From the NCBI GenBank assembly GCA_013519935.1, contig JACDUA010000053.1:1-32477 (forward strand): 32,477 bases of DNA, read 5' to 3'. Position 1 is the first letter of the stretch. Every line of letters begins with the position of its first letter. This DNA is from Ectothiorhodospiraceae bacterium WFHF3C12 (lineage in GTDB: Bacteria > Pseudomonadota > Gammaproteobacteria > Nitrococcales > Nitrococcaceae). Below, in pieces: positions 18,145 through 21,921 of this stretch. The position numbers and the translations under genes are program-made. The notes under the pieces were generated by a model, which worked only from the letters and a program-made list of their open reading frames with translations, did no database searches and was not told the origin of the DNA.

Positions 18145-19101
18145 ATGCCCGTGAAACTCGGTGTCGTCATGGACCCGATCGAGTCCATCAAGCCGTACAA
18201 GGACACCACCTTCGCCATGCTTCTGGAGGCGCAACGGCGCGGCTGGGACATCCACTACATGACCCTGGCGGACATCGCGCTGCACGGGGGCGAGGCGTGG
18301 GGCCGCAGCCGCCCTTTGCAGCTGCGGGACAACAACGACGACTATTTCACCGCCGGAGAGGCCCGCGAGTATCCGCTGTCCAGCCTGGACATCGTGCTCA
18401 TGCGCAAGGACCCGCCCGTGGACAGCGAGTATGTCTACGCCACGCACATCCTGGAGGCCGCCGAGCGTGGCGGCACGATGGTCTGCAACAAGCCCAGTGG
18501 TCTGCGCGACGCCCAGGAGAAGCTTTTCACGGCCCACTTCCCGGATTGCTGCGCGCCCACGCTCGTGAGCATGGAGGCGGATGCCATCAAGGCGTTCATC
18601 CACGAGCACGGCAAGGCGGTACTGAAGCCGCTATACGGCATGGGCGGGGAGGCCGTATTCGTGGTGCAGGCCGGCGACCCCAATACCAGCGTGATCATCG
18701 AGACGCTGAGCCACCGCGGGGCGCGTTACGTCATGGCCCAGCGCTATCTGCCGGAGATCAAGGATGGCGACAAGCGCATTCTGGTGATCGATGGCGAGCC
18801 GGTGCCCTACGCGCTGGCGCGCATTCCGGCCGTGGGCGAGACCCGGGGCAACATCGCCGCCGGCGGCCGGGGCGAGGGCATGCCCCTCACCGACCGGGAC
18901 CGCTGGATCTGCGAGCAGGTGGCTCCGGCGCTGCGTGAGCGGGGCCTCGGGTTCGTGGGCCTGGACGTCATTGGGGAATACCTCACCGAGGTCAACGTCA
19001 CCAGCCCGACCTGCATCCGGGAACTCGACGGCATCTACGGCATCAACATCAGCGGCACCTATTTCGACTACCTGGAACGCAGCCTGGATGCCCGGCGTTA
19101 G
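18145..19101 (+). CDS. gshB: Glutathione synthetase
   Basis: 318 residues; ATP-dependent ligation of glycine to gamma-glutamylcysteine. Very close to the E. coli GshB length (316). N-terminal domain with LGVVMDPIESIKPYKDTT and VLMRKDPPVDSEYVYAT; ATP-grasp domain with KPLYGMGGEAVFVV (K161 onward), QRYLPEIKDGDKRILVIDG, RGNIAAGGRGE and the metal-binding EVNVTSPTC. ATG at 18145 begins the standard KLGVVMDPI. The gene starts the rightward unit and overlaps apbE by 14 bases. Confidence 0.97.
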   Translation: MPVKLGVVMDPIESIKPYKDTTFAMLLEAQRRGWDIHYMTLADIALHGGEAWGRSRPLQLRDNNDDYFTAGEAREYPLSSLDIVLMRKDPPVDSEYVYATHILEAAERGGTMVCNKPSGLRDAQEKLFTAHFPDCCAPTLVSMEADAIKAFIHEHGKAVLKPLYGMGGEAVFVVQAGDPNTSVIIETLSHRGARYVMAQRYLPEIKDGDKRILVIDGEPVPYALARIPAVGETRGNIAAGGRGEGMPLTDRDRWICEQVAPALRERGLGFVGLDVIGEYLTEVNVTSPTCIRELDGIYGINISGTYFDYLERSLDARR

Positions 19102-20137
19102 GCGAAGCCGCGCTGGCCCGATTCTCGTCGTCCTGACCCTCGCACTGGCCGGATGCGGCCGCGAGCCCCAGCTGGTGGACCGTCAGTTTCTGGCCTTCGG
19201 AACCCTGGTGGACGTTTCCGTGTTCACCCGGTCCCCCGAGCGGGCGCACCGGGCCATCGATCAGGTTCGCGAGGCGCTGCAGCGCTGGCACGAAACCTGG
19301 CACCCCTGGCGGGGCGAGGGGCTCGCGCGGATCAACCGCCGCCTGGCTGCGGGCCGCCCGGCCGAGCTCTCGCCCGAGATACGCGACATGCTGGTGTCGG
19401 CGACGCGCTATCACCGCCTCAGCGGCGGGCGTTTCGATCCCGCCCTGGCGGGCCTGGTGCGGCTGTGGGGCTTCAACGGCGACGAGGATCCCCCGAGCCG
19501 GCCGCCGGCGGACGCGGCACTCCGGGACTGGCTGGCCGAACGGGGGAGCGTGGCGGATCTGACCCTGAGAGAAGACCGTGTCACACCCGCCGGCACCGGT
19601 GTTCAGCTGGATCTCGGCGGCTTCGCCAAGGGATACGCGCTGGATCGCGCGGTGGCCATGTTCCAGGCAGCGGGGGTCGAGAACGCCATCATCAACGCCG
19701 GCGGCGATCTGCGGGTCATGGGCCAACGCGGCGGACGAGCCTGGCGGGTGGGCATTCGCGGCCCCCGTGGCGGCGGGGTATTCGCCGCAGTGGAGGCCGC
19801 CGACGGCGAGGCCGTGTTCACCTCGGGCGACTACGAACGCTTCTTCGAGTGGCGGGGCCGGCGCTACCACCACATCCTCGACCCCGAAACCGGCCGGCCG
19901 GCGCGGGGGCTGCGTTCCGTCACGGTCATCACCAACGCCGGCGGCCTCGCGGACGCCGCCGCGACGGCGCTGTTCGTGGCGGGCAGGGAGTGGCCCGCCG
20001 CCGCCCGGGACCTCGGCCTCGATCAGGTCATGGCGGTCACCGACGATGGCACGGTGGAAGTCACCCCTGCCATGGCCGGGCGAATCCGTTTCGTGGACGC
20101 CCGGCCCGACCGGGTGGAGGAGGTCAGCTGGCAGTGA
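19088..20137 (+). CDS. apbE: FAD:protein FMN transferase, lipoprotein (ApbE)
   Basis: 349 residues; transfers FMN from FAD to a Thr (or Ser) of extracytoplasmic flavoproteins. The N-terminus is a lipoprotein signal, with lipobox LAGC and acylated C23. ApbE motifs: FGTLVDV (38-44), GRFDPAL (114-120), LDLGGFAKGYALD (174-186), NAGGDLRVMG (203-212), FTSGDYERFFEWRGRRYHHILDP (244-266) and the Mg2+/FAD-site DAAATALF (289-296). ATG at 19088 lies inside the gshB end. No protein with an FMN-acceptor motif (DxxSGAT/S type) is encoded nearby, so the substrate must lie elsewhere; NqrBC- or RnfDG-type subunits are the usual targets. The next two genes are coupled to it. Confidence 0.94.
   Translation: MPGVRRSRAGPILVVLTLALAGCGREPQLVDRQFLAFGTLVDVSVFTRSPERAHRAIDQVREALQRWHETWHPWRGEGLARINRRLAAGRPAELSPEIRDMLVSATRYHRLSGGRFDPALAGLVRLWGFNGDEDPPSRPPADAALRDWLAERGSVADLTLREDRVTPAGTGVQLDLGGFAKGYALDRAVAMFQAAGVENAIINAGGDLRVMGQRGGRAWRVGIRGPRGGGVFAAVEAADGEAVFTSGDYERFFEWRGRRYHHILDPETGRPARGLRSVTVITNAGGLADAAATALFVAGREWPAAARDLGLDQVMAVTDDGTVEVTPAMAGRIRFVDARPDRVEEVSWQ
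20116..20124 (+). promoter_or_regulatory. Ribosome binding site for the NusG-domain-II gene
   Basis: GGAGGAGGT lies inside the apbE end, 9 bases before GTG at 20134 (GTGA overlap with the apbE stop). It is the strongest site in this operon and fixes the start. Confidence 0.7.
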
Positions 20138-20511
20138 GGCGCATCCCCGTGACCTTCACCGACTGCGCCGTACTGGCGGGCGCCCTGACGCTCCTGGCGG
20201 CGCTTTACCTGGGCCTCTGGTCCCCGGCGGGACAGGCCGGCAGCCGGGCCAGCATCTGGGTATCCGGCGAGCAGCGGCAGAGCCTTGACCTTGAAACGTC
20301 CCGGACCATCCGGGTCAGCGGAGCGCTCGGGGAGAGCGTCATCGAGGTCCGCGACGGGCGGGTGCGGGTCGCGGACTCCCCGGGCCGGCAAAAGCTCTGC
20401 GTCGAGGCCGGTTGGCTGTCACGCAGCGGCGAGAGCGCCATCTGCCTGCCCAACCAGGTGGTGGTGAGAATCGAATCACCGCAGCCGCGCTTCGATACGG
20501 TGAACTTCTGA
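20134..20511 (+). CDS. NusG-domain-II-containing membrane-anchored protein
   Basis: 125 residues: one N-terminal membrane segment (about 9-27, CAVLAGALTLLAALYLGLW), then a small beta domain with the features of the NusG_II family: ASIWVSG, IEVRDGRVRVADSPG, CVEAGWLSRSGESAICLPNQVVVRI. The two cysteines (in KLCVEAG and AICLPN) are typical of the family. It is unrelated in role to the transcription factor NusG apart from the shared domain. Such proteins are often encoded beside ApbE and Gx-transporter/heptaprenyl diphosphate synthase component I proteins; their molecular function is not established. The domain should face the periplasm. Confidence 0.8.
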   Translation: MRRIPVTFTDCAVLAGALTLLAALYLGLWSPAGQAGSRASIWVSGEQRQSLDLETSRTIRVSGALGESVIEVRDGRVRVADSPGRQKLCVEAGWLSRSGESAICLPNQVVVRIESPQPRFDTVNF

Positions 20512-20513
20512 GC

Positions 20514-21071
20514 ATGGCCGCCACGCACCTGCACGCGACCCGCGAGGACATGCGCGTGGCCTACCTGGCGGCGCTGGCCATCGTCATTCATGTGGTCGAG
20601 GCCGGCCTGCCGAGCCCGTTGCCGGGCATCAAACCGGGGCTGGCCAACATCGTCACGGTGCTGGTGCTGATGTGCTTCGGGCTGCGGACCGCGGCCTGGG
20701 TGACACTGCTTCGCGTGGTCGCCGGCAGCCTGGTGGTGGGCAGCTTCCTCTCGCCCACCTTCCTCATGAGCTTCAGCGGCGCGGTGGCCGCGCTGCTGGC
20801 CCTTGCGGCGGGCGGGCTGGTGCCGGGAATGGGCGCTGTGGGCTATAGCGTGCTGGCCGGCATGGCCCATATGGCCACGCAGTTCTCGGTGGCCTACCTG
20901 CTTTTCGTGCCCCACCCCGCACTTTGGGCAATGTTTCCCGTTTTCATGACAGCGTCCGTCGGTTTTGGCGTTATCAACGGTATAATCGCCGCAGCGATTC
21001 TGGGAAGGATTAACACACGGACCGTGCAGCGGCCGCAGCAAACCATGCCCTTGAGCCAACATGGCCAGTAA
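20514..21071 (+). CDS. Gx transporter family protein (Hpre_diP_synt_I family)
   Basis: 185 residues, very hydrophobic, with about five or six membrane segments from residue 14 to 165 (for example VAYLAALAIVIHVVEAGLP, ANIVTVLVLMCFG, AVAALLALAAGGLVPGMG). The signature of the family is P-S-P-L-P-G-I-K-P-G-L-A-N near residues 35-47. The family was named heptaprenyl diphosphate synthase component I but resembles ECF-type S components/small-molecule transporters; the true substrate is unknown. Starts 3 bases after the NusG-II gene; its stop overlaps the tonB start by 11 bases. The C-terminal tail (RTVQRPQQTMPLSQHGQ) is unconserved. Confidence 0.82.
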   Translation: MAATHLHATREDMRVAYLAALAIVIHVVEAGLPSPLPGIKPGLANIVTVLVLMCFGLRTAAWVTLLRVVAGSLVVGSFLSPTFLMSFSGAVAALLALAAGGLVPGMGAVGYSVLAGMAHMATQFSVAYLLFVPHPALWAMFPVFMTASVGFGVINGIIAAAILGRINTRTVQRPQQTMPLSQHGQ

Positions 21072-21921
21072 CGAAATCACCTCCGGCGACCGGTTGTCGC
21101 TGACACTATTCCTGTCTATCACGGTCCATGCCCTGATCATCCTGGGCGTGGGCTTCACCTACGGCATGCAGAAGACAAGCACGCCGCCGCTGATCGAGAT
21201 TACCCTGGCGGAAAACCCCCAGGACGAAGCGCCCGAGGACCACGACTACCTCGCCCAGGCCAACCAGGACGGTGGCGGGCAGTCCGAGGAGAAGGGCCGC
21301 CCCAAGAAGGCCCAGAAGGCGGTCACACCGGGCGTGCCGGAAGGCAAGAGCGCAGTGCAGGCCGCACCGCAACCACAACCCGAGCCGAAGAAGGCCGACG
21401 AGGCCGTGGTTACCGCCAGGGACAGCAAGACCAGCGCACCGGAGCCGGATCAGAGTGCCAAGGAGGAGGTCAGGACGCCGTCCCGCGCCGAGCTCATCAA
21501 CGCCCGGACGCAGGTGGCGCGCTCCTCGGAATTCAGTGCCGAGTCCCGGGACGTGTACGCGCGCTACCCCACCAAGCGGCGGATCGACGCCCGCACCAAG
21601 CAGCACGCCGCAGCCGCCTACATGCGCGAATGGGTCTCCAAGGTCGAGGAAATCGGCAACCTCAACTATCCCTCGGAGGCGCGCACCCGCGGCCTGACCG
21701 GCACGCTCATCCTGGAGGTGACGCTGCGGCCGGACGGCTCTCTGATAGACACCCGCGTCCTCGACGCCTCCCGCCACCCGGTCCTGGACCAGGCGGCCGA
21801 GCGCATTGTCGAGCTCTCCAGCCCGTTCTCCCGGGTGCCCAAGGAAGTGCTCGGCGGCAACGACCTGCTGGTCATCACCCGGACCTGGCAGTTCCGCAAT
21901 CAGGGGCTGAGCGCAAACTAG
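21061..21921 (+). CDS. TonB family protein (TonB3-like)
   Basis: 286 residues; energy-transducing protein of the inner membrane spanning the periplasm. One N-terminal membrane segment (about 13-33), a Pro/Lys/Glu/Gln-rich spacer (about 50-150, for example PQPQPEPKKADEA), and a TonB C-terminal domain (about 195-286) with NYPSEARTRGLTGTLILEVTL, DGSLIDTRVLDAS and QAAERIVELSSPF. ExbB/ExbD are not encoded nearby. Its place between gshB and yqgE matches P. aeruginosa tonB3 (PA0406), which is needed for twitching motility, so a role with pili rather than iron uptake is plausible. ATG at 21061 overlaps the preceding gene. Confidence 0.88.
   Translation: MASNEITSGDRLSLTLFLSITVHALIILGVGFTYGMQKTSTPPLIEITLAENPQDEAPEDHDYLAQANQDGGGQSEEKGRPKKAQKAVTPGVPEGKSAVQAAPQPQPEPKKADEAVVTARDSKTSAPEPDQSAKEEVRTPSRAELINARTQVARSSEFSAESRDVYARYPTKRRIDARTKQHAAAAYMREWVSKVEEIGNLNYPSEARTRGLTGTLILEVTLRPDGSLIDTRVLDASRHPVLDQAAERIVELSSPFSRVPKEVLGGNDLLVITRTWQFRNQGLSAN

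Follow-up and report, generated by a model that had tools for sequence, protein, structure and literature searches.

A candidate split FAD-delivery system of Gammaproteobacteria, with EetB and a divergent ECF-T homolog encoded at separate loci

We analyzed a stretch of 32,477 nucleotides from Ectothiorhodospiraceae bacterium WFHF3C12 (contig JACDUA010000053.1; "the window" refers to this whole stretch), in which three genes, apbE, eetA and eetB, are packed between gshB and a tonB-like gene. Together with a fourth gene on another contig, whose product is by sequence and predicted fold a divergent homolog of the T unit of energy-coupling factor (ECF) transporters (hereafter T), they probably constitute a split system that delivers flavin adenine dinucleotide (FAD) to ApbE for the flavinylation of Rnf, with T acting without canonical ATPase coupling. 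The trio itself is an already known association, published mostly from Firmicutes, and the novelty lies in the split form with a motif-less T. A preliminary description of this DNA had missed the ECF-T-like component because it lies outside the window.

The products of the trio match their Pfam families far above the cut-offs (Table 1), and the coordinates and overlaps confirm the tight coupling of the genes that the preliminary description had reported. Its flavin transferase lipoprotein is recognizable from PF02424 and the lipobox LALAGC, and its NusG-II protein with two cysteines from PF07009 and the conserved residues C89 and C104. The polytopic membrane protein, to which no clear substrate had been assigned, can now be placed in the EetB family: PF07456 is the family that was used to search for EetB homologs in PMC9973259, and its substrate is therefore most likely FAD, by analogy with Listeria monocytogenes. 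According to that report, Listeria EetB pulls down FAD and is modeled as ECF-S-like; it failed to substitute for RibU in uptake and is required for FAD export, and flavinylation of PplA needs EetB together with the ECF-T protein FmnA and the ATPases EcfA/EcfA'. The same report finds eetB adjoining eetA in 3,328 genomes, apbE in 2,169 and rnf in 572 Clostridia.

The fourth component emerged from a survey of 276 gammaproteobacterial genomes searched for PF07456, RnfG, NqrC, EetA and ECF-T. PF07456 was present in 79 of them. The PF02361 (ECF-T) search returned ordinary CbiQ and BioN-like matches as well as 23 weak ones, and a hand count placed 21 of the latter in EetB genomes. Twenty of the weak loci were fetched; all had a fimV-like frame upstream, and 12 had a truA-like gene. 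The profile made from these 20 loci (A1) matched 83 genomes, reduced to 78 by dropping five weak matches (in G054, G128, G140, G198 and G238; E 6e-7 to 4e-4) because at those positions the PF02361 search gives CbiQ matches of ordinary strength; A4 does not include L186. With this definition, T is found in 76 of the 79 EetB genomes and in 2 of the 197 others (EetB only, 3; neither, 195), and as the scan scored at most ten candidates per genome, an absence of T may be a miss. The pattern persists without the 20 seed genomes (57/60 EetB genomes and 1/196 others; EetB only, 3; neither, 195) and at the family level, where T occurs in 44 of the 45 families with EetB and in none without it.

EetA behaves in the same way, being present in 78 genomes (77 of the 79 with EetB, 1 of the 197 others), and the pairing holds where eetA and eetB lie apart. 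The Jaccard index with EetB is 0.94 for T and 0.96 for EetA, against 0.16 for canonical CbiQ, defined as the 24 PF02361 matches better than E 1e-20. One genome, G201, has neither an EetA nor a T match, and its EetB is short, about 83 residues (L114, G201:C22, 7944-8195), which looks like decay of the system. A sample of 120 genomes drawn from the phylum, where weak A1 matches were not cut, contained EetB in 58, T in 59 and both in 55, with T without EetB in G198, G310, G349 and G364 and EetB without T in G296, G315 and G347.

In the source genome, an assembly of 168 contigs (G000), T is encoded at G000:C45:1781-2446, flanked by fimV and truA, whose identities NCBIfam confirms. T lies no more than about 430 bases from fimV in at least 72 of the 78 genomes, and in at least 52 it is near or overlaps the longest truA frame; the short length of some loci makes both counts minimum values. 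The distance between T and EetB is usually large: in G017, G090 and G115, each assembled as one contig, it is 0.40, 0.44 and 1.87 Mb, respectively. The joined form is seen in G327, a genome outside the class (L275), where rnfB, rnfC, rnfD, rnfG, rnfE, T, apbE, eetA and eetB follow one another on one strand. The last four overlap in their longest frames, and a 202-codon frame without a Pfam match stands between rnfE and T. Pfam confirms every family assignment in this run but that of T, for which it gives no match; A1 detected this T at E 6.0e-24. G327 is the only one of the 55 phylum genomes in which the T and EetB matches fall within a few kb. Its run links T with EetA, EetB and ApbE, and the whole set with Rnf.

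T may also stand directly before truA, as in L165 (1781-3342). The gene order ecfA1-ecfA2-ecfT-truA is described for Bacilli in PMC8046335, and the shared T-truA order could reflect either ancient synteny or chance; PMC5285504 makes no mention of the truA gene.

The assignment of T to the ECF-T family draws on both sequence and predicted fold. Only 10 of the 23 weak PF02361 matches reach the 25-bit cut-off (the T of the source genome scores 17.2 bits), and TIGR02454 matches 14 of 20 T proteins far under its cut-off. When A1 was compared with the PDB, however, three ECF transporter chains stood out, 4hzu_T (E 5.6e-12), 4huq_T (6.6e-12) and 5d3m_D (1.9e-11), with the next match not below E 0.29. 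An AlphaFold model of the T from L185, built with 20 sequences, has a predicted local distance difference test (pLDDT) score of 88.5. Foldseek ranks ECF transporter chains 1 to 11 for this model (E 2.5e-6 to 0.13), and VIA-align ranks ECF transporters 1 to 12, with Z 12.7-15.4 and a root-mean-square deviation of 4.0-5.3 over 209-229 residues, the next Z being 4.5.

What T appears to have lost is the means of gripping an ATPase. T units carry two Arg-centered signatures, with the consensus Ala-Arg-Gly, that couple them to the ATPases, and Arg replacements are reported to inactivate subgroup II ECF transporters (PMC3246461). Both signatures are present in our controls, EcfT of 4hzu and the CbiQ of G140, which has an ATPase beside it. 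The narrow pattern [AGS]R[GS] occurs twice in none of the 78 T proteins and once in 13. As this pattern alone misses the signatures of the G140 control itself, we recounted with a loose one, [ACGST]R[AGS] in the last 110 residues, and found none in 46 proteins, one in 26 and two or more in 6; a pair spaced as in EcfT or CbiQ is absent from 77 of the 78. Each of the R columns is a gap in 70 of the 78 aligned T sequences, and the second column holds R in none. Because the Arg signature pair has been lost, EetB and T probably function without canonical ATPase coupling. A dedicated ATPase is also lacking among the matches: TIGR04520 (ECF ATPase) exceeds its cut-off in 0 of the 79 EetB genomes, compared with 3 of 14 control genomes, and in 20 T neighborhoods no gene with Walker A plus LSGGQ lies directly beside T; L120 has one about 2 kb downstream.

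The preliminary description had placed the flavinylated partner outside this region, and we agree: the block holds no flavinylation target, and the likely partners are RnfG and RnfD, judging from the sequence of another contig (C82). The single FMN_bind match of the source genome is the RnfG of that contig, within an rnfABCDGE-nth run. In this run NCBIfam confirms RnfA, B, C, D, E and Nth, and TIGR01947 adds support for rnfABCDGE. RnfG carries DQLTGAT and RnfD carries SMAT; no NqrC exceeds the cut-off in this genome. Across the class, RnfG is over the cut-off (E < 1e-27) in 161 of the 276 genomes and NqrC in 45. EetB is found in 69 of the 161 genomes with RnfG versus 10 of the 115 without it (Fisher p 1.8e-10; co-occurrence p values ignore kinship), and in 7 of the 45 NqrC genomes versus 72 of the 231 others. 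Broken down by type, EetB occurs in 63/127 genomes with Rnf only, 1/11 with Nqr only, 6/34 with both and 9/104 with neither. The comparison with rnf and nqr genes that had been suggested thus shows that the presence of EetB is not independent of RnfG, though with the exceptions considered below. In L175 (G030:C77, 4460-6424), the genes after T encode a redoxin-like protein and an RnfG-type FMN_bind protein, in that order; EetB lies elsewhere in this genome.

In the mechanism that we propose, EetB, a predicted ECF-S-like protein, would carry cytosolic FAD to the periplasmic face of the membrane while docked on T, which would serve as its docking subunit, having kept the ECF-T fold and lost the Arg pair that grips ABC (ATP-binding cassette) ATPases. 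EetA, the constant companion of EetB, would perhaps hand FAD to ApbE, which would attach flavin mononucleotide (FMN) from FAD to RnfG and RnfD. Transport would run downhill, drawn by the supply of FAD in the cytosol and by its irreversible use by ApbE. We regard the odds that EetB and T work independently of ATP as roughly even. The fuller proposal is more tentative: an ATP-independent exporter of the ECF type, not described before, whose components are encoded at separate loci. In it, EetB, EetA and a degenerate fimV-truA T would feed ApbE for Rnf, in many Gammaproteobacteria and elsewhere in the phylum, and T would have lost its signatures because FAD supply and ApbE consumption drive transport.

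Several observations weigh against this proposal. On the client side, 92 of the 161 RnfG genomes have no EetB, and the control Escherichia coli has RnfG and no PF07456; since all of these manage without EetB, other FAD routes exist. Conversely, ten EetB genomes have no RnfG. Seven of these carry other FMN_bind matches, and G009, G066 and G273 carry none. In the four RnfG-less neighborhoods that were scanned beyond the FMN_bind protein, or that have a long one, this protein lies beside a PepSY_TM protein (G026, G174 and G097; L248, L250 and L252) or is an FMN_bind plus Fer4_5 protein (G201), and a PepSY_TM-linked FMN_bind protein is a possible further client. On the transporter side, distances between genomes correlate between EetB and T (0.63) no more strongly than between EetB and pyrB (0.62; Mantel test), which gives no coevolution signal beyond background. 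A single-sequence structure model of EetB reached a pLDDT of only 54.3, and neither the EetB sequence nor the EetB profile matched anything in the PDB. Deletion of eetA in Listeria left activity unchanged (PMC9973259).

The remaining objections concern the energy source and speak for ordinary ATP-driven ECF export from scattered parts, in which T and EetB would recruit a pair of ABC ATPases through non-canonical contacts. Export in Listeria needs EcfA/EcfA' (PMC9973259), and ABC ATPases abound here: all 79 EetB genomes have TIGR04520 matches below the cut-off, and a general ABC ATPase may partner T. The signatures themselves leave some room for this, as single Arg replacements are partly tolerated in BioMNY (PMC3246461), the T of G156 has a correctly spaced pair under the loose pattern, and R stands in the first signature column in 4 of the 78 proteins. 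Outside the class, an alignment inspected by eye shows R-G at the second site in 7 of 11 T relatives (L276, L278, L280, L284, L286, L288 and L290) and a clear first site in none. Against ATP-driven export stand the missing signature pair within the class, given the inactivating effect of Arg replacements in subgroup II, the lack of TIGR04520 matches over the cut-off in the 79 EetB genomes and the absence of an ATPase gene directly beside T in the 20 neighborhoods. The relatives that keep the second site only look, from their sequences, like a stepwise loss of the motifs and may represent an intermediate. On balance we consider this explanation unlikely, while giving it appreciable weight.

A second alternative is that EetB works alone, like solitary BioY or BtuM, with T serving some other function and being retained in those lineages by coincidence. 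Transport by S units that lack an ECF module has been described (PMC11109136), and the usual distance between T and EetB would suit such independence. However, the distributions of T and EetB are nearly identical, quite unlike that of canonical CbiQ, and T sits inside the rnf-T-apbE-eetA-eetB run of G327. EetB also retains an A-x3-A motif (A16-x3-A20, kept in 71 of 76 aligned sequences), a type of signature that in the S units of Lactococcus is associated with S-T contact (PMC3246461). A solitary EetB thus seems very unlikely. Likewise very unlikely is the idea that EetB moves FMN or riboflavin, or imports periplasmic flavin: most ECF-S proteins are importers, but the failure of Listeria EetB to substitute for RibU and its need in FAD export (PMC9973259) speak otherwise, and the steady pairing with ApbE, whose donor is FAD according to a review, fits export. 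Finally, of the extracytoplasmic redox or quinone/isoprenoid-linked system envisaged in the preliminary description, the extracytoplasmic flavin part stands, while the quinone/isoprenoid part is barely credible and was rejected, because the trio represents the known EetB/ApbE association, the EetB of Listeria is an FAD-binding protein required for flavinylation (PMC9973259), the genes are linked to ApbE and co-occur with RnfG, and the sole pointer to such a function is the label "heptaprenyl diphosphate synthase component I" that PF07456 bears in Pfam.

The conservation of the block bears on its origin. We fetched 79 EetB loci, each about 8 kb either side of eetB, from 78 genomes, the source genome being left out and the locus of G057 being split over two contigs. 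In 58 of the 79, gshB, apbE, eetA, eetB and tonB all lie within the stretch, so the association extends well beyond this genome. Contig ends truncate ten of the other 21 loci; the remaining eleven deviate from this pattern (L045, L051, L061, L071, L072, L074, L075, L088, L098, L107 and L114). In two f21 genomes, G019 and G246, for which the other locus was fetched, gshB-apbE-eetA is separate from eetB-tonB. E. coli K-12 has gshB, yqgE and yqgF in direct succession, with no trio between them. EetB distances track those of gshB (Mantel 0.60; permutation maximum 0.20) and pyrB (0.62; maximum 0.29). The preliminary description had regarded the trio as inserted between its flanking genes. That view was abandoned: the same flanks recur across the class and EetB distances follow gshB and pyrB, which makes loss seem likelier than insertion, and the block looks ancestral, with apparent loss in other lineages.

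Within the window, all five genes of Table 1 run in one direction, with overlaps of 14 bases between gshB and apbE, 4 between apbE and eetA and 11 between eetB and the tonB-like gene, and a gap of 2 bases between eetA and eetB. The lipobox cysteine of ApbE, C23, is kept in 61 of 65 aligned sequences, and the protein carries the block HHILDPETG, of the conserved HxxDPxxG type. Its W74 aligns with Asn in 4ifu and Tyr in 4xdt, at a position that we take to be the hydrolase/transferase switch. One mutation may switch ApbE between the two activities, according to a review. The NusG-II protein, which we equate with EetA, keeps C89 in 65 and C104 in 64 of 67 aligned sequences; it matches 4esn, 3ld7 and 2kpp in the PDB, and its only other Pfam hit is T2SSM, below threshold at E 0.021. 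Beyond the tonB-like gene lie algH, yqgF, pyrR and pyrB, as identified by reading of the frames and neighbor queries. The ndh2, pplA and demethylmenaquinone genes of the Listeria-type locus do not adjoin the trio, a statement confined to its neighborhood, as the rest of the genome was not searched for them. A second ApbE-family gene of the source genome (G000:C13:11909-12739; L005 10781-11797) has a signal-like start and no evident lipobox, and is followed by tetratricopeptide repeat (TPR) proteins.

Table 1. Genes of the block and its flanks, in window coordinates
Feature	Position	Strand	Basis or remark
gshB, upstream flank, outside the system	18145-19101	+	matches to NF003573 and TIGR01380 exceed the cut-offs
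ApbE-family FAD:protein FMN transferase, lipoprotein	19088-20137	+	PF02424, 246.6 bits (cut-off 25.6)
EetA-family protein, N-terminal hydrophobic helix and NusG-II domain, GTG start	20134-20511	+	PF07009, 89.3 bits (cut-off 29.6)
EetB-family polytopic protein, predicted ECF-S-like FAD exporter	20514-21071	+	PF07456 (Hpre_diP_synt_I), 117.3 bits (cut-off 30)
tonB-like gene, conserved downstream flank, not assigned to the system	21061-21921	+	PF03544, 52 bits; beside eetB in most class loci

The preliminary description had singled out this region as an incompletely described system. This holds for Gram-negative bacteria, whereas the family association with ApbE and EetA had already been published. 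Our search of the open-licence PMC literature, with subscription papers and preprints outside its reach, returned no paper that treats EcfT or CbiQ together with FimV and apparently none on EetB partners in Proteobacteria; PMC10572741 mentions EetB and Proteobacteria, and the data set of PMC9973259 may list such genomes. Our analysis provides a parts list for one Gram-negative pathway, including a T that is encoded at an unrelated locus and sits at the edge of family cut-offs. Should T prove to work without ATPases, the system would represent an ECF-type exporter that is not coupled to ATP and in which a series of motif losses can be seen.

Among known systems, the closest is that of L. monocytogenes, composed of EetB-FmnA-EcfA/A' with FmnB (ApbE) and EetA (Rivera-Lugo 2023, PMC9973259). 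Both have a PF07456 EetB with EetA beside it, an ApbE-type transferase and an ECF-T-like partner (FmnA there, T here), and in both FAD would serve extracytoplasmic flavinylation. They differ in that T here lies at a separate fimV-truA locus, lacks the Arg signature pair and has no dedicated ECF ATPase that we could find, and in that the likely client is Rnf rather than PplA. The eetB-rnf clusters of Clostridia (572 genomes, PMC9973259) likewise link EetB to Rnf, often with ApbE; there eetB and rnf stand together, whereas here the parts are encoded at separate places and the T is of a divergent family; in this phylum G327 shows the joined form. T resembles the EcfT of Bacilli (PMC8046335) in its profile and fold matches and in its position before truA, but it has no adjoining ecfA genes and no Arg pair, and it lies downstream of fimV. 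The solitary BioY and BtuM proteins (PMC11109136) are ECF-S-type carriers that dispense with ATPases, as is proposed for EetB; they are importers without a module, whereas in the system considered here a T homolog has been retained.

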